Assembly: GCA_964035545.1 (NCBI GenBank)
Contig: OZ037766.1
Location: 9,929,722 to 9,993,721, forward strand
Direction: 5' to 3'
DNA: 64,000 bases
From: Bugula neritina
Lineage: Eukaryota; Bryozoa; Gymnolaemata; Cheilostomatida; Bugulidae
Shown one piece after another: positions 6,159 to 52,597 of the stretch (its first letter is position 1; each line of letters starts with the position of its first letter). Under the pieces are notes generated by a model. That model was not told the origin of the DNA. It was given only the letters and a program-made list of their open reading frames with translations, and did not search any database. The translations under genes and the position numbers were made by a program.

Positions 6159-10627
<4,469 letters not shown>

Positions 10628-11901: not shown

Positions 11902-14900
11902 TCACATACATAAACACGGATCCTTTCTTCTCCGAACTCTGAGCATTCTCTTCAACCCAACTTCTGCAACAGACTCTAAAAGCTTGTGAATGCCTTCTCC
12001 AGTGTGGGCAGAGCATAGGAAGGCTGTCTTTTTCGAGGCCCTCATGTGTTCTGCTGCTTTATGTGCCTCTCTTGCTTCCACAAACCTCTCCCCTTCCTGT
12101 CTAATCTCGTACAACTTCTACAATATTTTTTCAATTATCGGCAAAAATTACGAGGTTTGATTCTCTTAAAAATAATATAAAACATGGATTAAATCAAACT
12201 GCAGTCATTAACAACATTATGAAAGCATAATATAACTTCAATTTACCTATTACTAAATACAGTAATGGCCTTCCCGAATACAAAAAAATCTTCCAAAATA
12301 AATATTTCAAGCAGTTGTCTAAAAAATTGTTCCTATCCTATTGACCATGAGTGAGAAAAAAGTTAAAATCTGAGCTCATTTCTCAAGTTAGCCCAAGAAG
12401 TAGGTGTAACAAAGGTTATACCTATCAATGCATCTGTGCTTGGAGAAAAAAAAGAAAGTTTTCCCTTATAAATAACAAGTTAATTCACTCATGTAAAAGT
12501 TTGAAAAACAGAATTTTCAACTATTTTAATCATAACAAAGGATTATCTACTCTTGAACTCTGTTGACCTACTGAAAGAGTTTTTTGTGACAATCACAACA
12601 GGTTTTAAAGAACTCAACTAGTATTACATACACCAGTTAGCATAAAGGAGGGTGCAGTCACATGTCTTCAAATATATGCAATATACACAGTGGGCTACTA
12701 ATATAATTGTAATGGAAAACTGCAGTTTCTTAAAACAATGCAAAGCGATTATTTTGATTACTATTCACAACTTTTCATATAAAGAAATAGTAGCTTGAGT
12801 ATAAGTATATTATATACCACAATTATATCTAAAGGTCAATAAAACAGTCTTATTTAAAAACAACTATTTTTATAAAATTCTGGCATCAAAACATTTCAAA
12901 GGGAGAAATTCAAAGATAGCCTGGGAACTATTTTTTTTCTTTTATCTATAGTTGAATTCTACAGAACTTTATATAAACTGAAAATCTGCATCTGCAGAAA
13001 ATGATAATATTATAATGAATAGTCCATTTGAAAGGGCAGCCCCTAATTTATTTTAAGATTACTTTATTTTCAAGCAGGAGCTCATGGTAGCATGCAAGAG
13101 CCCTCAACCTGTATTATTGATTATATATGAGCACCACGCGTCAACAATAATATAGAACAAAATACTAGCCTATGCTGACGTAGCAAACTTATGCAGACAC
13201 AACAACGACTATACAATATACGTTGGTGTACAATTGATATTTACCATTCAGTTCTGAGCTACTGGAAAGATAAATAAAAGTAAAAGCTTTAAAATACAGT
13301 ACTTGGCTATAAATGAGAAAATGAACCTAGAAAGAGGCTAATGGAAGTAGCTAACAATATAGTATTTAATAACAGCAGAGGCTGAGGAAGGGTTTGACGT
13401 ACTGTCAGCGTCCAGGAAATGTGCATAGTGAGTGGTGCAGCTGGACTTTATGTTAGTATCTTGTATTTATGACTGATACAAACTGAGGGATAGTATTGTA
13501 TCTATTGTGTAGATAGATAACAAAAATCAATGATCATGATATGTTGAACTTACCATCAATTAATCATTCTACAAGTTACACATTACCAAGTATGATCACC
13601 TTAAAATGCAAAAATAGAACTGTTCTATTTGGAGACATGTTGACCACAATGATATGCTGGCAAAATGAATGCTTCAAAGTATATTATACCAGGCGACATG
13701 TAATAATATAGTATAACTTACTTTCTGATCATTCATTGGATCAGTTTTATTTCCAACAAGTATGTACGGAACTTTTCGACAGTAGTGTTTAAATTCTGGA
13801 TGCCATTTTGCCAAGACGTTGTTTAGTGTAGTTTGACTGGTAACACTGAAGACCAACAGAGCAACATGAGAATCGGCATAAGATAAGGGGCGGAGTTTAT
13901 CATAACCATCTTGGCCAGCAGTGTCCCAGAAATTCACCGTCACCATTGTGTTGCCAAGTTGTATTTCTACAGAGTGGTTATCAAATATTGTGGGAACATA
14001 ACTTTCCAGTCTTGTTTTGTTAATGAAGTAATGAATTATACTAGTTTTTCCAGTTCCACCATCACCAACTAGAACACATTTTATTTTTGCATAATGGCGA
14101 ATTCCTCCAGTGACTGTGAAACTAGGTGTTCGCATTGTGGAAGTTCTGGAGGAAGGTTTGGCCTTTTGCTCTTCATCTTCTTTGTTCATATCATTAAGTA
14201 GAGCCTCATATATCTCATCATACACCTTTTGTTTTTCAGCCTTTTCTTTTTCCAATTCATTCAACACAGTCACAGTTCTCTTATACTTCTCATTACTTTC
14301 AAAAGATTGACTTTGCCTCTTTAACTCTTCTTGTAGCTAAAATTACAAATATTTCCCCTTTAACAGTAGCAGTTTGTAACTTACGGTACAAACAAAAGTG
14401 AGAAAAAACGTTTCAGATACAAAATACCCTTTCCAGAAGTCTCTTACATCTTGTTTTAAACATGAAATTGTATTCCTTGATGAGGGGATAAGCTTCTACC
14501 TTGGTTTCAAAAGGTGTCAATATATTTGGAGTGTGTTACACCTACCAGCCATTTTCCAGAAAAATAATGTGAAGAAGAGTTTCCACTGATATTTGATACA
14601 TAATAACCATAAAACTTTTGTGATTTTGGTATTCAATGAATCTTAAAAGAAATTGAATGTATTACATGAACTTGGTTATTCCCAACAACAGTTTTTATTA
14701 TTTTCTTAAATTTTCTGCTAGTTTAATTATGACAATATGACAAACTGTGGCCTATTTCATTGTAATATAGCTATTAGATAATAATTTGATTATATAGTAA
14801 TCAATATTAATAATATGTTGTAGAGCCAAAAAGTTCCCTTAGCAAAAATACAGAACTGTGTTACTTATGCTTTCAATTTATGCTCAGAGATTGATTTGCA

Positions 14901-16156
14901 GATACAATATACTTTTTTAAAAAACAATTGCACACTTATGGTAGAGTCTAAAAAAGCAACTCTTTGAAAACACTTTAACTGGTCTAGTAAACTATTACGG
15001 CAGTAGGGAAGTTTTAGTTTTGAAAGTAAAGGCACTCATGCAGAATGAATAATGAACAAATGGAAATAGTAGTTAGTAATAATGGTAATAACAAACTAAT
15101 AATAGTATTGTGGTATAAAAAAACTTTTGCATGAAAAAGTCATCAGTGCTAGTGAATCTTATTACCCGGACTGAATTTAATGTAATGAAGATAGCTGTAT
15201 CATGAGGTGGCGGATTTGAGAGCAGCGACTTGCAACAATGTTGGGACTTCTGGAGTACAACCAGAATGATATGACAATTCAAAATTTCTCCAACAATAAC
15301 CCATCCCCCCCCCCCCACCTAGTCTGAATTAGACGGCATAAGACTAATGCTATAACTTACATGGGTTTAGATACAACCTCACTGACATAGCCCCAAGAAT
15401 CATGGTATATTGAGGAGCAGATTGAATGTCTAACAAGATAATTATACTTTTGAACCATGAGAAAAATCCAGATATAATTTTCCCCATGGTAATCAACTAA
15501 GTACAATCATTTATAGACTAACAAGCAAGAAGCTAAATAATATGATAATTAAAACAACAATCACTGGAAGATATTTATTCATAAGCAATAATAGAATTCA
15601 CTAGTCTTAATGAACTGTAATGCCATAAAGGTAAAATTAGTACGAGTATGTAAGAAGTGTGAGATCATTCACGAGAGATGATAGATGATTTCCTGAATTG
15701 TAATAACTGGACTTCCTTTTAAATACTGCTACCCACCGTCTCCATTTCTGCCTGCATTGAAGCCACAATAATAGATTGCTGTTCCAGGCGTTCTTTAAGA
15801 GACATCAATCGCTCATCTTCAACAAAAGGGAAGCTGCTAGCATGGTGCTCTTGCCCCTCTTCAATAGAGACAACTTCAGGTGACATGGGCTTCTCCAATA
15901 ATTCTGCAAGCTCCACGTACCCTGCTTCTTTCATTGCTGTTATAAACTTTGCCAAACCATCACGGTTTTTTGTAGGAAGGACACCCAAAAATATTCGCAT
16001 CCTTTGAGCTCGAGTAGCACCAGACTGAATATTCTCACAATCTTCTTCGCTTAGAACATGCTCTTGAAAGAGAAAATCCGTCACATCTTCAGGATTCAGA
16101 TTCCGTACCAATTCAACATAATTTTCTCGCAGCTTCTGGCGGCTTTGATGGTCCAT
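11902..16156 (-). CDS. CARD - coiled coil - Rho-family GTPase fusion protein with CAAX-like C-terminus; 3 exons
   Basis: Exons (minus) 16156-15737, 14336-13722 and 12117-11902 all meet at phase 0 and give 416 residues. Residues 1-92 (MDHQSRQKLRENYVELVRNL onward; TDFLFQEHVLSEEDCENIQS) read as a death-fold CARD. About 112-201 is charged and heptad-like, a probable coiled coil. The GTPase follows: P-loop GDGGTGKT 231-238, switch I YVPTIFDNH with Thr256, DTAGQ 278-282 with the catalytic Gln, NKTD 336-339, CSAHTG 380-385, and an insert-helix-sized segment between the last two, as in Rho proteins. Basic RVRRRK (405-410) precedes the terminal CLCM, a possible prenylation box. The family logic suggests a death-fold adaptor that recruits a membrane-anchored switch, which is inference. 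Splice sites: ACG|GTGGGT, TTTTAG|CTA, AAA|GTAAGT, TTGTAG|AAG. A further small exon in the 1.4-kb first intron cannot be excluded. No gene symbol is known to me. Confidence 0.85.
15305..15317. repeat. Poly(C) run in intron 1 of the CARD-Rho gene
   Basis: A run of about 13 C on the plus strand (poly-G in the transcript) in an otherwise AT-rich intron. Such runs often vary in length between individuals or are mis-assembled. Confidence 0.6.
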
Positions 16157-26357: not shown

Positions 26358-29300
26358 TTGAAGCAAATAATGTGTTTATATTTTATAAATATTTCTCATG
26401 TTGCACTGAAGTAATATGGTTACTCAATAGACCATATAAATTTAGTAAATTTACTACCTTGGACTATTTCTAGAATACTCACCACTATAACTTTTATAAA
26501 CTTCTGCATGTTCAAATGCAAAATGCATACCTCTAGAAAATAGCTGTGAAACTTTTATTTAATGCACTATTTTATTTCATATCTTAAACTTATAAATCAT
26601 GAGTTCATTTTTCAAAATGTTTAAATTAAGTGCTTAAAAATGTATTCCTGCACAAATACCCTAGAGCAGTTTGACCACAACCCCAGCTGTTTTGGCAAAA
26701 CACATTTAAGGGTTTTTTTGTTGACATAGTGGAGAATGTTTTTGGCAGTTGGGTAGACTTGAACTCCAGCTGCTTATACGCAATCTGATTGGCAGGATTT
26801 TACATGATCAGTTGATGTTTGTATCTGATTGGTCTAATAATGCATTTGCATTTGAAAATGTAGAGTTTTATAAAAATTATAATGGTGATATTTTAGAGTC
26901 GGTACACACCCTTTTTCGGTTGAATTTTATAGTCTGATCATGCTGTAGTCATCTACAACACTTCAGTGTATGGAGAAATTATTAGTATTACGAAATCTGT
27001 TTTGGCTTACTTTGCTATGCTAGTTTTCCGACTTAGTTGTTAAGTGATATAGTTTTAAATCAATGCATACTACTAAATACATTCTCATAGTCTGGTTACT
27101 TTGCGTGCTTCAGTTTACTTTAATGTAATTATTTAAAAAATTGTTCAACATGCACATTACAAATGCATTAGCCTGCAGTATAACCATAAATTATATGCTT
27201 GTGTACCCACTACTATTTTATTTTAAATCTGTAAAACAGCAGTTTTTTGCTCTGTCACATTCATCTGCATCGAGTGGTCCAATATTTAAACGCCTAGGAC
27301 TCTTTTGCATTAGCTGGCAAAGTTTCTTCTTGCTCAATTACCTTTAATGAAGTTAGACTACAAGAATAGCTGTAAGATGAATTCTGTTGCTTTACATTTG
27401 TTGAACATATTTTCTGTTCTTTTTTTTCCAGATGTTCTGTCAAAACCACTGTTTTTGTGCCTTTTGAACTATAAGTTTTGGTGCATTTGTATCCCAAGTG
27501 AAGGGTTGGGTTTGGATTTCGCTCAGTTGGCTGACCGTCCTTAAAATGTAGGGAGCAAACTCTGGATTGTTTTAGAGTCCATAAATTTCCTAATTCATCT
27601 TTCCGATTTATTAAAACACACCAATCGTGACTCTGTTGCTCATTTTTTGTGGCAACATATAAAGAGTAAAAAGATCTAATTGTCCAGGATTGCTCTTTCG
27701 AAACTTTTGAAGTTTGTATTCTCCATTATGGCAGTTTTTAACTGCGCAGATTCTCATGCCGATCTGTAAAATTCCAAGCAAAATATTCGGTATTGGATTA
27801 GATTCCTACCAGAACAAAGTTAAGAAATATACCACAGATCTTTTGGAATATAAGTTGTGAACACAGTTTTGTGCTAAAGCCAGTAATTAATGTAGCCAAT
27901 ATTGTTGACTTTGAGTAAGTAAAAGTTGAAAAATATGGTAAAAAGCCAAGCCTTGAAAAATGGCAAAAGTTCAAGAAACCAGATTATCAAAAGGTACAAC
28001 ACATATGGAGTACTATGTCTGAGAGTAATGACCATCAAAATGTTCTATTTTCTGTAGTACTGCATATGTTTGATATACGTAACAAACATTTTGTGTTATG
28101 TATGTACATCAAGCATACATATAAATTGAGGAGTTTTCTTATAGATGTTGAACCATTTAAAAAATCTGGTCATGTCAATCCTGGCAGAGAGCGCAGATAG
28201 TCCAGAGCATTTCTCTAAATTGGTCAGAACCATGTCCATAACAAGAAATCAAGTGTGGGAAATAGAAGCAGCAAAAGTGACGTAGAGTGACAGCCCTCTC
28301 TGGAGATTGCTCAGATATGGCGAGTTACTGCTTCTAATTTCTATCGTGTGAAGACACAAATGGAATCTCAAGTTAATGACGCACGTACTGACATGAGCAA
28401 ATTGGTAAGCTCATTAATAAGCCCAGGAGACATAAGCTCTGTACCTTCCATTCAGCACGGCCGCTCAATGGAAGCTAAAGCAAAACAGACATACTTGGAT
28501 TCAAACAGCCCTCATCGCAAGAAACTAACTCTTAGGGACTGTGGACCGTTTTTGTTCACAAAATTTGGGTTTTCAGGTGCTTCCCCTGATATGATAGTGA
28601 GCTGTGAGTGTCACGGGTAAGGCATTCTAGAAATTAAGTGTCTGGCTTTAGATGATTTCCCATCATTCAACACAGTTTCCTTTCTGAAAATTTTTTTTGA
28701 TGGCACAAAGTCTATTCTCAAATAGAAACACCAATATTATGGCCAAGTACAAGGTCAGCTTAAAATAACTAAAGCTGAATATTGTGACTTTTTTGTATTT
28801 ACTGTAAGAGGAAGTGTTACTCAACGCATAACACATGACTTGAGATTCACGGAAACCATGTTCATCAAACTGTCCAGATTTTCTATCGATTATCTGAGTC
28901 CAGCATTTTGGCTGCAGCATAATCAAAATGAGGAACCTTCGAAAAAGCAGACCTGTTTTTCAGAATTAAAAACAAAGCCTTTAGCTGCAGCAAATATGCA
29001 GTGAAAATAAAAATACTAAGAGTAGGTCTTTCTTTGACAATGATGTAAACATAAAGCCTTCATTTTGGACTGAGGTTTTGTGTAACTGCCACTGATTTAA
29101 TATAAATATATGCATATTTTGTTTATGTACATTAAATATTTCACTTGTTTTGAAATAATTTATTTTTATGTCAAGCCTCATTTTAATAAATTAATTGTCA
29201 ATACAAGACTAGGTCAAATATGATCTGAAGATAATATACAAATGTAAATGGTCTTGATTTATAATATATAGATCTCAACAAAGAGAGCCAAAAGGGAGCT

Positions 29301-35532: not shown

Positions 35533-38500
35533 CTATGTTGTAGGTCTTGGCTTTAATATTAATTTACCAGTCTACAAAAATAAATTAAAATTATTGCATC
35601 TGGCTACTTAAGTAAAACTAATAATTTTCATCAACATACTGTATATATTAAATAAAAAAACAGCAATTTAACTCTTTCAGACCTGGTATAGGACAGCTAT
35701 TTATTTCAAGACTTGAAAATTATTTGAGAATTCTCTAGAATCTAGATATTCTATTAAATAGCTATTACATATGCATTCATTTTATATTAATACAATAATA
35801 CACGCAGCAACAGCACAAAAATGAGCTAAAGAATTACAAAGCTTTAATTATTTCAAATAAAAATTTGTGCTAAACATGCCACCATAATTAAAACGCTATA
35901 AATTTCAGTCAACAAGGGTATAGTTCCAATGGGGTATAAAGATCAATGTTGAAATCGGTCTCTCAAAATAATAAACGCACATTTGCACATATTTTGTTTC
36001 AAAAATTTGTGCTTTTAATGGGAATGTTTTAACATGCTGTTTATCATGGATAAATTTACTTGCATAATTGTGTAAATGTAGCTTTTAAACTGCTCAGAGA
36101 ATTACAGTACACTGACTAAATACTTTGCAAAAATCACAGTCTAAAAAATCAATGGTTCACTAAAACCGTTGGCGTCTCCAATAAGAACAGTATACATGTG
36201 TCAATAATAAACAAAGGCATTTGTCTAAAATAGATTGTATCTGTAAAAGTTAAACAAAAAACTACTTACATCATCACAAGCCATATTGTAATCTTCAAGT
36301 ACCAATCTGCATCTTGATGCAATTCTATGTATTCTAAAGTTAAGGAATTAATTTAGCCTGCACAGTTACATTCTGAATCAAGTTTGCCAACTCTGTCCAG
36401 ATGTCGGTAGAGAAGAATATAAGTATATAAAGCATTAAATTGGCAGATACCAGAAGTGGCATAGCCATGGCCTACTGGTCTGGTATGGCAGCCACCATAG
36501 TTCTAAGTTGCAGACTCATTTCACAGTTAGGTGACATGATGTAGCCTTATTCTATTCAGCACTACTACTATTTCGCCAAAAGTATAGACATGGTATAAAA
36601 ACTTCACATCCTGATACAGATATTTTTATAAATGATACCCATATAATTATTGTGAAAACTCAACAAATGTTTTATTACATGAACAGTCAGGAATGCAAAT
36701 AATTTCAAATTATATTATTAATGTCAAATGTTTCGGTGACAAAGTAATTAATAATGTTCACCATTAAGGCTCAAACATGTATGCCTGAGTGTAGAGCAAT
36801 CTTTTACTCACATGTTTCTTATAACTTACACAATAATTATTTTTATTTATATAACATACAATTTTTCTATTTAATTTCACAAACAGTTCCATTCTTCACC
36901 AAACAAACAAAAACTGATTAATAAAAGTAATCCGACACATTTTAAAATGAGACCAAAAAGCACCGTAATTTAGCAAATATTTGTAATTGCATCAAAGATG
37001 TTGGAGTTGTCTGCCGTGCAGAATTTATTAACTAAAATTATAATTCTACCTATTTTATTAATACTTAATTGGGATTATACACTAGTGACTAGAGCAACTT
37101 ACATCAAGTCTCAATGACATTTAACCTTTCAGTTTTCTGCCTGCAATTACTAATCTCACCCTCGAAAGTTATGCAGATGTAAAAGGATACATGGATGGAG
37201 CGTAAACCCTCTTGTGTATTCCAGCAAGGAAGAGAAGCAGCAAGATTAAAATACTGAAAGTGAACAGCCAATGCTCCAGCAACGATTGCACAAAAGTAGT
37301 CTAAAATTTAGAAACAAGTCTATAATGAGTTGACAAGTGAGCAAATACAAATAAAATACAGCTGATTAGCTATATAACTTTCAATACCCAGCAATTTCAA
37401 TCATTGCCATGCAATTCCCTGATTTTAGCCAGTATATAAATTGAAGTGTGCGGGAAGCCACTTGCATAAAAACATGTAAATCCACTTGCAGTATATACAA
37501 TGTGAATAGATTTTCAATACACATTTGTAAGGTGTTTACATCAAGACTAGAAAATTTTTCAACTGGTAAAAATGAGTAGAATTTAACCTGTAAAGTTCTA
37601 GCATCCCTGAGCCAATTCCAAGCACCAGTTGCTGTACAAACAGTTGTGATTGCCAATATAACTGAAAAAAACATGCCATAACAAGCAAACAGCAAAAATA
37701 AATATGAAATATGTTTGCATGCACAATATTATTGATCTTGATTTGAACATTAAAGATAAAAACTGCAATGATTTGTAGTAGTGTTTTTGGAGTAGTTGCA
37801 GTTAAAAATATAAATCTGCTAGTAAGTTTTTTTTATGGAAGTATAAAAAGTCAAAAATCTGAAAAATATTTTCTAACTTTTGCCACCCACTTCATATTGG
37901 TATCTCAATAGAGTAGTTACAATTTTCATTATAATCTTGAACATGTCATTATTTTTTAACCGGATATAATACTGTGGTGGTTCGTGGAACTACCAGCAGC
38001 ACAACATGTAGGGTCGCGTAATTGACCCGGAACAATGGATAGCCAATTAGCGTAGTTGAGAGTTAGCAGCAATTGTAGTTTCCCGCTGCTAACTCAGTCG
38101 AAGCTAGAGTGTGAAATAGATTAGATGTGTAACTTGTTAGAAATAATGTATCGTGTTTTTATGATGTATAGTTGTGAATAAAATATACTCGTTCACTCGA
38201 CTTAGCCTGGTGCAGTTCTATACTAGATAAATAGACTCTCTGGATAGCATATCAACCCTAATCTGAAAATTATAACAGTGGTGGCAGCGGTGGGATAGTG
38301 CATCCAAGATGGAGACTGACAATGCTGAAATTCAACCACCGGCAATCGAAGGTGAGCGTAGAGACAATGCTGTAGAGACAATGCCTGTTAACCATGTAGT
38401 AGAAGAGCGAAGGGTTCCGCGAGAACTAGCTGAAGACCGCTACAGGTTAAAGGCGCCCACCTTCACGGGTGAAGAGGAGGTGGAACAATTTATTCAAGAG

Positions 38501-41500
38501 TTTAGCGACGTAATGGACGTCGCTCAGTGGCCCCCTAGGGTGGCCCTGCTGAAGCTTAGAATGGCATTGATGGACAAAGCCAAGCCCTATGGGCTGGGCG
38601 TAGACATTGATAATATCTTTGCTTCTCTGCGGGCCCGCTTTGGCCTCTCGGCTACAGATGCCAGGGCCCGATTACAGAGGTTGCGGCGTGATCCCCGCAC
38701 CCCGCTGCGGGAGCATGCCGCCGCGGTCATGAAGCTGGCACAGATCGCGTACAGCGACTTGCCCCCAGTCAACCGCGAGAGGTACACCCTCGACGCTTTC
38801 ATAGCATCTGTCGACGATCTGGGTCTCCACCACCAGTTTCTAGCTAGGGGAGTCACCACCGTTGAAGATGCTCTGACTGAGGGGGAAGCTTACCTCCTAG
38901 CTAACCAAATGCATAAAAGTCGCGGAAGCTCCCGCCAAGTGGAGATAGACCGCGCAGACACGGCCGCGGGACAAGGGGAGGAAACCCCCGCCGCGGCTGC
39001 CGTGTCCCAGTTGGCGACGGCATCAAAAGTCACTCAACTGACGGACATGCTAGCCAAGCTGATAGCAACACTGACACCACAAAACCCAGTGAGTACCGCC
39101 CCTGAGCCCATGCGGCCATCGGCGCCGCCACAGGGAGAAACAGTCAGTTTTTGCTGGGAGTGCGGAAATCAAGGACATTTCCGCCGATATTGTCCCTTCC
39201 TAAATCAGGGGTTAAACTACCGCGGCCCGCAGATGTTCCCACCTTCCGCGGGCCGACGATGAAACCTCTAGGGAAGAAGAAACGCAGGTCACCCAGACGG
39301 GTACCGCGTACTGGCAACCAACAGTGGCAACAGCCACGACGGACCAGCAAGGGGCTTCGCCCCGCGGCTGCCTTTTCTATGCCCCTTCACAACAGATTCA
39401 CAGGGCTGCAAGTCTAAGAATCTGGATGGGAGCACACAAAGGTAGCTGAGGATCTAGCCTCGGCACCCCCGAGGCCTACCCATCACCGCCCCAAGAGACC
39501 TCCTTCGCGACCCAAAGCGAGGGAGGTACTCCCTGCGAGAGTAAGGCCTGAAGGGAGAGTTCAGGTGCAGCCCCATGGGAACAGCTATTTCTTGCCCGGT
39601 AAACTGGAAGGCAAAGCTGTTACTTTTCTCATTGATTCGGGCTGTACCACAAACCTCTTAAGCCGCCAACTCTTCGACACCCTCAGTGCTAGGGTCAGGG
39701 GCGAGATGGAAGCATACGAAGGGGAATACGGCACCCTAGCCGACGGGTCGTGCCTTCCCTTCTATGGTATAATTGAGCTGACGGGACGAGTCCGCGATCA
39801 AACGATCCAAGAGACGTTCATCGTCAGTCAGCTCAAGGAGGATGCTATCCTCGGGATGCCGTTCCTTAAACGGCACGGATGTCACATAGATTTTAGCAGA
39901 TCTGCAATGATGATGTCCGGGCGGGAACTCGCCTGCGTCGACAAGTTCGGCTGCCCTTTAGTGGGAGGTGTGCAAGTGGTACGCAACCGTACCATACCAG
40001 GCCGCTCCCGGGCTACCATTCACTGCAGGGTGAATAGTAGCCGGATCTCTGGACTCGGGGTGGTTGAAGGCGCGCACGAAAAGATCCAACTTGCCAGCAG
40101 TCTGAACCAGCTGACTGAGCAAGGGGAGATCTTAGTGCAGTGCGTCAACCCCTTTACCGAGCCTATCAAGCTCCCGGCTGGGTCGATGCTGGGCCGTTTT
40201 CACTCTGTTCAAGAGGGAGACGTAGGCCCGTCGCTGGGTGATGCGACAGAGGCACTCCCTCGACACCCTATTCAGGGACGAGGGGCAGTCCCAACACATC
40301 TCCGGGAGTTATACGAGACGGCCAGTAACGGCTGTGCGAGTAACAGAGAGCGCCAGGCTATGGCCAAGTTACTACGCGACTACGGTGATGTGTTCAGCAG
40401 CGGAGAGCATGACGTGGGACTGACTGGAATTGTCAGACACGAAATACCGCTGACTGCAGGGACAGTCCCTGTCCGGCAGCCCACGCGCAGGCTGGGGCCG
40501 GAGAAAGAGAAGGAGGTTAGCCGACAAATACGGGATCTTCTGGACCGGGGACTGATAGAGCCCGCCCATAGTGCGTGGAGCTCGCCAGTCGTACTGGTCC
40601 GGAAGAAAGACGGCAGTTGGCGGTTCTGTGTGGACTACCGCAAACTCAATAGCGTAACCATACAGGACGCCTACCCTCTACCTCGTATTGACGAGTCATT
40701 GGACGCCCTAGCCGGCAGCAAGTACTTCAGTACGTTAGACTTGCTAAGCGGCTATTGGCAGGTTCCTCTGAGTCCCGACGCCCAAGAGAAAGCGGCGTTT
40801 ATCACACGGGACGGTTTGTGGAAGTGGAAGGTGCTGCCCTTCGGGTTAACCTCCGCCCCAGCCACCTTCCAGAGGTTGATGGAACAAGTCCTTAGCGGAC
40901 TCCATTGGAAGACACTGCTGGTCTACCTCGATGATGTCATCGTAATCTCTCCAGACTTCGAGACACATGTCAGTCGTCTGCAGGAGGTTTTCGAGAGACT
41001 CCGAGGTGCCGGTCTTAAGCTCAAACCTTCCAAGTGCGCTCTGTTGCAGCCGGAGGTCAAGTACCTGGGGCACGTTGTCGGTCGAAACGGCGTGGCAACG
41101 GATCCCGAAAAGGTACGGGCAGTAGAAGACTGGGTCACCCCTCAAGACTTGACCGGACTCCGGGCTTTCTTGGGGCTGGTAAGGTATTACAGGCAATACA
41201 TACCAGACTTTGCGGGCATAGCCCAGCCGTTAAACCGGCTTACCGCAAAGGGAGTGACGTGGCAGTGGACTCTAGTCGAACAAGAAGCGTTCGACCGCCT
41301 CAAGGGCTGCCTCCTAACGGCGCCCATCTTGGCCTACCCAGACCCCACTCTGGAGTACATCCTAGACACGGACGCCAGTGACCAGAATGTTGGCGCTGTG
41401 CTGTCGCAAGTGCAGGAAGGCCGAGAGGTAGTAGTAGCCTACTACAGCAAGTCTCTCTCTCCCGCTGAACGAAATTACTGCACTACCCGCAAGGAGCTGC

Positions 41501-44500
41501 TGGCAGTAATCAAGTCAGTGAAGCACTTCAGACCATACCTATATGGCAGGAAGTTCCGGCTGCGTACGGATCATGCCTCGCTGATCTGGTTGTGCAGGAG
41601 AGCAGAGCCCTCTAGTCAGGTCGCCCGGTGGCTCGAAATCCTAGCTGAATTCTCGTACCGGATCGAACACCGACCGGGCAAGAGACACAGCAATGCGGAT
41701 GGGTTGAGTCGCCGACCTGACGGAGGTTGCAAACAGTGTCTCAACATCGAGAGGAGGGATGGAGGTCCCCCACGATGCGAGTTGGAGACGCTGGCTCATC
41801 ACGGAGCACCGTTTGACTGGGATCAAGGTCAACTCAGGCAAAGAGTTGATGAGTCCCCGGAGGATGTACAAAACCTCCGCGCCAACCCTGTACTGGCCGG
41901 TAATGTTCGAGAGCTGAAGAAGCTCCAAGAAGAGCTGCCTGGAGTCGTGGCAGACATCTACCGGGCCAAAAGGGAAGGGCGACGACCCAGCGAGGAACGC
42001 ATAAGACAGGGATGCGCCGAGTTCCGGCTATACTGTCAGCGTTGGGACTCGCTGCGGATCGGGCAGGATGGGTTGCTAACCATCTCTCTAGCTGCCAGCG
42101 GCAGACACCCGGAAAGGAAGAGGGTAGTCTGCCCCACAGCCATCCGCCGTGAGTTGATTTGGGATACTCACAAGCAGGCCCACGCAGGGGTCAAGCGAGT
42201 GATATCCAAATTACGACTCCGGTGGTATTGGCCGCAGATGGAGCGTGATGTCCGGCTCAGAGTCAAACAGTGTGAGATCTGCCAGGCCAGTAAGCATAGC
42301 CGCCCCCCTGGTGAAGCAGGACGGCGGAGGCTATATGCTGGTAGGCCCTGGCAAGTAGTCGCTGTAGACCTGGTCGGACCCATGCCCCTGACCCCCAGAG
42401 GCAATAATTGGATCCTAGTACTAACCGACCACTTTACTAGGTGGGCGGATGCTCTGGCTATCCCAGATGCATCAGCCCCAACAGTGGCCAGGGCACTAGA
42501 CCAACACGTATTCTGTTATTTTGGGCTTCCCGAACAGATACACTCTGATCAAGGCGCTCAATTCCAGTCTCAACTGATGAGCGACCTTTGCCACCTCTGG
42601 GGAGTAAATCAGAGCAGGACCACCCCCTACCACCCTCAAGGTAACGGGGTGGTGGAGCGCAACAACCGGATGCTAGGTGATGCGCTCCGGAGTCTCCTCC
42701 TTGGACGAGGTCAAGAGGAATGGGATACGGTGTTGCCGCAAGTCATGCGTGCATACCGTAGCACCCCACACACCAGTACTGGTGAGACCCCAAACCTCTT
42801 GATGCTCGGGAGAGAGACTCGTGTCCCTGACCATCTCACCTATCACGTTCCAGAGCAAGATAACTCAGTCCATGAGTATGCCAGTGAACTAGTGGAACGG
42901 ATGAAGGCCGCACACGAGATACTGCGTCAACAGCAGTGGAAGGTGCGGCACGAAGATTCCGATGAACCACCCCTCTATCAAAGAGGAGATAAGGTGTGGA
43001 TGGTCAATTACCGTAGGCGCCGCGGACAGGCTGATAAGCTGAAGCCTAAGTTCGTAGGCCCCTACGTGGTCGTCGAGGCTATGCCCAATCATACGTACAA
43101 GATTGAGCGCTCAGGACAGGTGTCTATCCAGAATGAGTCTCGCTTGAAACCGTATTGGGCTAGCCCCGGCGGAGTGGGAGAAGCCCCCCCGTTGTTAGAG
43201 CCCAGGAGGCAGACAACAACGCGCGGGCGACGGCGGCATGGACCTGAATACGAAGTGGTCATACCGCGGGAAGAAAACTTGGTGAGAGAGGAGCGGCAGC
43301 TTTTGTCAACAGAAGCGTGTCCGCCACCGCCAAGTCTAATTCCATCACTTCCAGAAACCGAGCCGGTTCCGGAAGTGCAAACCCCCACGGAGGGAGGGGC
43401 TCCATCCGGAGAACAAGAAGAGGTGACTGCTGACGGTGAAGTAGAGACGCCATTAGAGGCCCCTACTAACGAACCGGCAAGCGTGTCACCCCCCCTAGAA
43501 AGGGGACAGCGTACGAGGCAACCCCCCGCATACTTGAAGGACTTCGTATGTGACTGCGTTAAAAGCGGCACACATGAAAGTCTAGGGGAAAACCGTACGA
43601 GAAAAGAATCGAGCAAATGTGGGAGTTGTCAACACCACGGAAATATCAACTTTTGTATCGGCGGAAGTAGAAACAAAATTCATCCGCCGGGTGCACAAAG
43701 TCTTAATCACGCACCCCAACCACGTTGCTCGATCTTTTCATACGCTGATGCAGTCAAGAGTAGACGTGTTTCTAAGCAGTAGTTCAAACCATTTCACATA
43801 TTCAGTATGTCTTACGACAACAGATCGTGGGGTGAGTTAACTATATCTTAATACGAAACTAGATTGCATCGCTCAGCTCTGACTCACTGAGTCAATCGAG
43901 CTGGAGATAGGTTAGTGAAATACCGTAGTAAGAACTCAGTTTGACTTAGAGATTTTTATAATCTCATTGCAATACGGTTCTATCTGACTATTCACTATCA
44001 TTAATCTCTACGAGGTAACTGAATTAGGAGTTGCCAAGCTGTTCAAGCTGACAACACAGCAGTGTACTGTACTAACACTGTTGAAACTTTTTCAGATTAC
44101 ACTCGACCCTCTACCACCAGGGTACGGGATAGAACACTTCCCGCTCCGTATCCGGAGGACTATGCTAGTGGTGACCGGCCTGAGCCACTACGCCGCCGTT
44201 GGCGGTGGGTGTCTCCACAAACCGAAGAAGAAATAGAAACAGCCTGGGGGTCCAGAGGACGGACGAGATGCCAGATCTGTGGTGAAGATTGCGCCTCTCA
44301 CCGTTCCCTTAAACTACACGTCAATGCTCATCTCCTACTAACATTCTGCCCCTGCGGGTACAATGATGTGTATCCCTACCCCGTCACCAGACACAGAGCG
44401 GCGGGCTGTTTCCCTGGAGAAAACTATGTGGTCGACGCTAAGCTGTACCCGGAGTTCCTCACACTTATACGACCTCTGGTGAAGAAGGCCATGCTATTAG

Positions 44501-50770: not shown

Positions 50771-52597
<1,827 letters not shown>

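Follow-up and report, generated by a model that had tools for sequence, protein, structure and literature searches.

CARD platforms are known to be triggered by ligand binding, by phosphorylation, or when an NB-ARC or NACHT domain exchanges its nucleotide. Rho switches usually work via separate effectors, and RhoBTB and Miro are multidomain Rho relatives. The gene described here, CARD-Rho, encodes both kinds of module in a single chain. It is located on the minus strand (16156-11902) of a window of 64,000 nucleotides from the bryozoan Bugula neritina (assembly GCA_964035545.1, contig OZ037766.1, positions 9,929,722 to 9,993,721 of the forward strand). By sequence comparison, a CARD, a helical segment, a Rho domain complete with its motifs and, at the C-terminus, a CaaX-type box are shown to lie in one conserved gene. 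Bryozoa are a phylum with few genomic studies, according to PMC13326412.

Apaf-1 and CED-4 resemble CARD-Rho in having a CARD beside a nucleotide switch within one chain. Their switch is an NB-ARC domain, whereas CARD-Rho has a Rho GTPase, a helical segment and a CaaX-type box; neither NB-ARC nor WD40 was matched in the protein by the Pfam scan. DAP kinase, which has a death domain, and the Roc-COR-TIR proteins (Roc, Ras of complex) found in sea anemones and in Aplysia also combine a Ras-superfamily GTPase with a death-fold or TIR module. Roc-type GTPase domains joined to TIR or present in DAP kinase are described in passages of PMC9334734, PMC8195603 and PMC5094078; unlike CARD-Rho, these proteins are of the Roc-COR type and, in those passages, are without a CARD in the same protein. 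In zebrafish, Gbp3 and Gbp4 contain a GTPase and a CARD in one chain, and the GTPase activity of Gbp4 is required for Asc-dependent caspase activation (PMC4932187). Here, a GTPase of the GBP (dynamin-superfamily) type comes first and the CARD last, while no GBP domain was matched in CARD-Rho by the Pfam scan. A lophotrochozoan fusion of CARD and GTPase is found in snails, where AIG1 (GIMAP) proteins carry CARD or death domains and coiled coils are among the features of the family (PMC7053062); the GTPase is of the AIG1 family, not Rho. In the CARD-CC family (CARD9, CARD10, CARD11 and CARD14), a coiled coil comes after the N-terminal CARD; in CARD-Rho, long predicted helices of marginal heptad periodicity occupy this place. 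The coiled coil of CARD9 allows the CARDs to nucleate BCL10 (PMC9342958). CARD9/11-type CARDs rank below Apaf-1 in the fold comparison of the CARD-Rho CARD. The Rho GTPases RhoD, RHO1 and RhoA have a complete Rho domain, an insert and a CaaX-type box like CARD-Rho, but are without the N-terminal CARD and the helical segment, and differ from it at the position of RhoA Tyr42, which is Arg or His in CARD-Rho.

A sequence-only reading of the window had proposed that the joining of CARD and Rho GTPase is new. As far as found, this applies to the pairing itself: no CARD-Rho protein is described among the papers listed on fusions of CARD with Rho or small GTPases (for one listing, 20 of 2,597), as judged by titles and abstract openings, or in the passages on domain combinations of PMC7053062, PMC9334734, PMC8195603, PMC2575513 and PMC5094078. 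In the passages of PMC2575513 on amphioxus CARD combinations, no GTPase occurs. The claim is narrower with respect to CARD-GTPase fusions in general, which are already known from GBP-CARD and AIG1-CARD proteins, as are fusions of Ras-superfamily GTPases with TIR. Together with these two, CARD-Rho brings the number of animal GTPase families fused to CARD to at least three.

The gene is composed of the following features (window coordinates):

Exon 1, 16156-15737, minus strand: 420 nt; start codon, a CARD at residues 6-88, a linker of variable sequence at about 91-114, and the coiled-coil segment to residue 140.
Intron 1, 15736-14337, minus strand: 1400 nt, GT-AG, phase 0.
Exon 2, 14336-13722, minus strand: 615 nt; continuation of the coiled-coil segment at residues 141-190, a linker rich in Ser/Thr, and Rho GTPase G1-G4, comprising the P-loop, switches I (T256) and II (Q282), and NKTD.
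Intron 2, 13721-12118, minus strand: 1604 nt, GT-AG, phase 0.
Exon 3, 12117-11902, minus strand: 216 nt; Rho insert, SAH (G5), C-terminal helix, RVRRRK, CLCM and stop codon.
Possible polyadenylation signal AATAAA (weak), 11825-11820, minus strand: about 77 nt beyond the stop codon.

The three exons are all in phase 0, their lengths are multiples of three, and their joined translation results in 416 residues and a stop codon. The splice donors are GTGGGT and GTAAGT, the acceptors TTTTAG and TTGTAG. Coordinates, strand, phase and protein length as given by the sequence-only reading agree with the translation and the splice sites, and Thr256 and Gln282 are found where they had been placed. AATAAA is over-abundant across the window (208 matches, 167 expected).

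The model was built from B. neritina genomic DNA alone, and relatives on unlabelled contigs appear as single-exon pieces. Both observations would be in line with two distinct neighbouring genes, one for a CARD and one for a Rho protein, that were merged by eye, with no single protein, which is hardly credible in view of the following evidence. An annotated protein of 417 residues from the bryozoan Watersipora subatra, already public as an uncharacterized protein, contains CARD and Ras domains, spans all three exons and is 68% identical to CARD-Rho over the full length; the order of CARD, helical segment and Rho domain is present in a second species. According to PMC12902671, transcriptomic data were the main basis of the Ensembl annotation of the Watersipora genome, although the source annotation of the 417-residue record may differ. 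On unlabelled contigs, 10 CARD-exon and 11 Rho-exon pieces of the family were found (four of the latter in a first search and seven in a second), counting only those that align as family members and excluding other Ras-superfamily matches. In all pieces (10/10 and 11/11), a Val codon (GTN) is located exactly where the exon of the window ends, as expected when translation reads into a splice donor; the splice positions are therefore conserved. Two pairs of CARD and Rho pieces, P0031/P0005 and P0034/P0020, have longest contigs of equal length within each pair (8456 and 13611 bases, respectively), which suggests that the members of each pair may be linked. Furthermore, the helical segment crosses the junction of exons 1 and 2. 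On the basis of the full-length Watersipora protein and the conserved splice positions, an artefact of exon joining by eye was rejected.

Sequence identity between the window and Watersipora is unevenly distributed. It is high in the CARD (69%), the coiled-coil segment (78%) and the Rho domain (77%), and lower in linker 1 (25%), linker 2 (42%) and the last 15 residues (27%), where the form C-x-C-M is preserved. The number of independent lineages is smaller than that of the sequences counted, since the window and P0017 share 99% of their residues, as do P0025 and P0033. The first protein search covered 5.8 billion proteins; the second used an alignment and scored only the 7993 candidates with most shared words. 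All protein searches depend on shared five-residue words, so that relatives in other phyla with few exact words could be missed, and within this scope no full-length relative other than that of Watersipora was found. A word search with residues 1-195 (E up to 10) returned three of 786 candidates, namely the Watersipora protein and two exon-2 pieces. Among viral contigs, the queries P0034 and P0017 gave 6 and 5 pattern-matching stretches, respectively, and no relatives.

In the B. neritina genome (215.8 Mb, 295 contigs), the CARD-Rho protein obtained 38 matches, three of which are its own exons (99% self-match for exon 3). The next best-scoring match has 41% identity over residues 272-389, and residues 1-215 are not touched by any other of the 38 matches. 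A second copy was not seen in this search, and a recent paralogue or tandem duplicate is without support.

The CARD was identified in the full model by Pfam (PF00619, residues 6-88, 55.3 bits, E 7e-15, curated cut-off 23.9), as well as in exon 1 scanned alone, and the Watersipora protein scored 57.5 bits. A CARD within residues 1-92, as proposed from the sequence, is thus confirmed by profile search. Structure was modelled for the Watersipora protein from two alignments, A6 and A7, each model being used for its well-modelled part: the Rho part of the A6 model is poor (block pLDDT 32-68 past residue 210), the CARD of the A7 model middling (block pLDDT 58-81). Foldseek matches of the A6 model to Rho proteins (rmsd 11.7-16.3, TM near 0.3) were discarded. 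A single mixed alignment (A3) was dropped, as CARD pieces were misplaced onto the Rho part. In the structure model, the CARD forms a predicted six-helix death-fold bundle, and the nearest CARD by fold is that of Apaf-1, tied with caspase-9. Compared to PDB sequences, the CARD exon matched a designed protein first (E 1.5e-6) and Apaf-1 next (E 2.5e-4), with RAIDD, caspase-9 and CARD11 at lower ranks. The resemblance to Apaf-1 and caspase-9 suggests a CARD-caspase as partner. Acidic charge is kept in 12/12 CARD sequences at positions 23, 27, 37, 38, 39 and 41, and basic charge, also in all twelve, at 18, 49, 52, 54, 63 and 70; these conserved charges may form the basis of homotypic CARD-CARD binding.

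Between CARD and Rho domain, two long helices are predicted (114-150 and 155-197/198 in Watersipora numbering, block pLDDT 63-90). The segment is probably helical, while its coiled-coil character, claimed in the sequence-only reading, is weakly shown: the 3.5-residue periodicity is marginal for each helix (p 0.058 and 0.066) and for the whole stretch (0.13).

The claim of a complete Rho GTPase was borne out by Pfam, with a Ras match (PF00071) at residues 226-397 (128.6 bits, E 2.2e-37, cut-off 21.6) compared to 83.2 bits for Roc. Exon 2 alone reached 117.7 bits (E 5e-34). For exon 3 scanned alone, Pfam returned HflX_C at E 0.1 and nothing for Ras; added to exon 2, exon 3 made the Ras match longer and higher-scoring. 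Among PDB sequences, the GTPase was closest to RhoD (148.9 bits), RHO1 (142.4) and RhoA (138.9; best 60 of 164 matches). The phmmer alignment to RHO1 (9pe1_E) is gapless where exons 2 and 3 meet and along the Rho insert, with a 2-residue gap afterwards, which supports both the splice and the presence of the proposed insert; the alignment to RhoD has a 3-residue gap within the insert stretch. GDGxxGKT, YxPTxFDN, WDTAGQ, LRPLSY and NKTD are kept in 13/13 exon-2 sequences (window, Watersipora and 11 pieces), and the G5 motif CSAH is encoded by exon 3. The Watersipora model superimposes on Cdc42, Rac1 and RhoA with TM values of 0.83-0.92 of the target for most of the 50 matches listed and rmsd mostly 2.0-2.4. 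All of the G1-G5 motifs, the switch Thr, the catalytic Gln and a Rho-type fold are present; in what we take to be RhoA numbering, these are the P-loop, Thr37, Gln63, NKxD and SA. GTP binding and hydrolysis are predicted. The C-terminus reads RVRRRKDPCLCM, a basic stretch (RVRRRK) followed by a CaaX-type box (CLCM; CACM in the Watersipora relative), a feature absent from the sequence-only reading, and prenylation of this box is predicted. A further unusual Rho fusion was noticed on an unlabelled contig (P0006), a protein of 469 residues with an F-box and a Rho-family GTPase by precomputed Pfam domains. In another protein (P0041, 525 residues, from a metagenome contig without label), a Ras/Rho domain near the N-terminus, at 20-191, is followed by a long C-terminal part without Pfam match at E 0.01.

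We propose, with somewhat less than even confidence, that CARD-Rho is a membrane-tethered scaffold in which the GTP/GDP switch of the Rho domain gates an oligomeric CARD platform for caspase or inflammatory signalling. The prenylated CaaX box would hold the protein on membranes, and the helices would bring about dimers or higher oligomers. Loading with GTP by a Rho guanine nucleotide exchange factor (GEF), and switching off by a GTPase-activating protein (GAP) or a guanine nucleotide dissociation inhibitor (GDI), would alter how closely the CARDs are spaced or how accessible they are. Once clustered, the CARDs could nucleate CARD-CARD assembly and draw in another CARD protein, which, for a CARD of the Apaf-1/caspase-9 type, would be a CARD-caspase or a CARD-Death adaptor. 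The output would be a GTP-gated platform tied to cytoskeletal or membrane cues. The use put forward in the sequence-only reading, in which the nucleotide switch and the assembly of CARDs would be coupled at a membrane, would be in keeping with the anatomy of the protein. A conserved fusion of this kind would directly link membrane or cytoskeletal GTPase signals to CARD assembly.

Several points weigh against the scaffold proposal. Apart from the marginal coiled-coil periodicity, the direction of signalling (Rho controlling the CARD, or the CARD clustering Rho) is unreadable from sequence. In addition, the residue following FDN, which we take to be the equivalent of RhoA Tyr42 in numbering and role, is Arg in 12 of the 13 exon-2 sequences and His in the window. 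With this position altered, the choice of effectors may be unusual and the Rho domain may bypass the standard ones. The same residue bears on a reversed flow of the signal, in which the CARD would dock and cluster, and the Rho domains gathered at a membrane would act on the cytoskeleton, for example when cells round up or are extruded, or when dying cells are phagocytosed. Complete and conserved Rho motifs speak for this, as do the cytoskeletal outputs of ordinary Rho proteins and a CARD which, with both charge faces, can enter assemblies passively. Standard effector-binding Rho proteins differ from Arg/His at the Tyr42 position, which is so occupied in 13/13 sequences here, and we regard the reversed flow as rather unlikely. 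The CARD could also act negatively, with the membrane-held domain sequestering CARD caspases or adaptors and releasing them with the GTPase cycle. Membrane cycling of the RhoGDI type would provide the release. Mammalian CARD-only proteins are known to regulate inflammasomes (PMC7555848). However, the helices and the presence of both charge faces on the CARD are as compatible with assembly as with blocking, and sequestration appears quite unlikely.

For the scaffold proposal, possible partners were found in the B. neritina genome, where CARD was matched seven times, CARD-Rho included. The other six matches lie in five stretches; a second Pfam scan covered four of these matches. Two matches 0.5 kb apart may represent one CARD split by an intron. 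A partial CARD match (28.1 bits) on C6 is located about 4.6 kb upstream of a caspase match on the same strand, and both would form one CARD-caspase gene (C6:14148625-14154240); that this assignment rests on distance and strand also counts against the proposal. CARD and Death domains are near each other at L012:5315-6390 (Death 32.5 bits) and L011:4904-6490 (22.2 bits, cut-off 22.6), which are possible candidate adaptors for CARD-Rho. One further CARD is located near ankyrin repeats.

At least 176 matches to Peptidase_C14 were obtained in the B. neritina genome (C1, C4, C6, C7 and others), many of them clustered. The count is by exon, genes being fewer, and some matches are interrupted by stops, owing to introns or pseudogenes. 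A large expansion of caspases is suggested by these matches. NB-ARC and the Apaf-1 winged helix were not found in the genome by an exon-wise search, which could miss a split gene and whose positive controls were prokaryotic only. APAF1_C, in the exon-wise search, and MALT1_Ig were likewise without a match in the genome, and the controls for both gave nothing either. NACHT gave one partial match. The use of CARD-Rho by bryozoans in place of Apaf-1, as an apoptosome-like platform with a prenylated Rho switch and an enlarged caspase set, would be conceivable, and we consider it very unlikely.

Several other features are encoded in the window. An exon of a D-isomer 2-hydroxyacid dehydrogenase (8002-8463, plus strand; PF02826, E 4.7e-14), CtBP-like by eye, is convergent with the CARD-Rho gene. 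An open reading frame with a THAP domain (27294-27725, minus strand; PF05485, E 9e-6) is possibly a transposon-derived or host-adopted relative. Two long open reading frames at 38276-43782 on the plus strand are gag/pol-like by eye and point to a gypsy-type retroelement; GC content reaches up to 0.55 in this stretch compared to 0.29-0.38 over most of the window. Actin is encoded at 50771-51775 on the minus strand (PF00022, E 9.5e-133).

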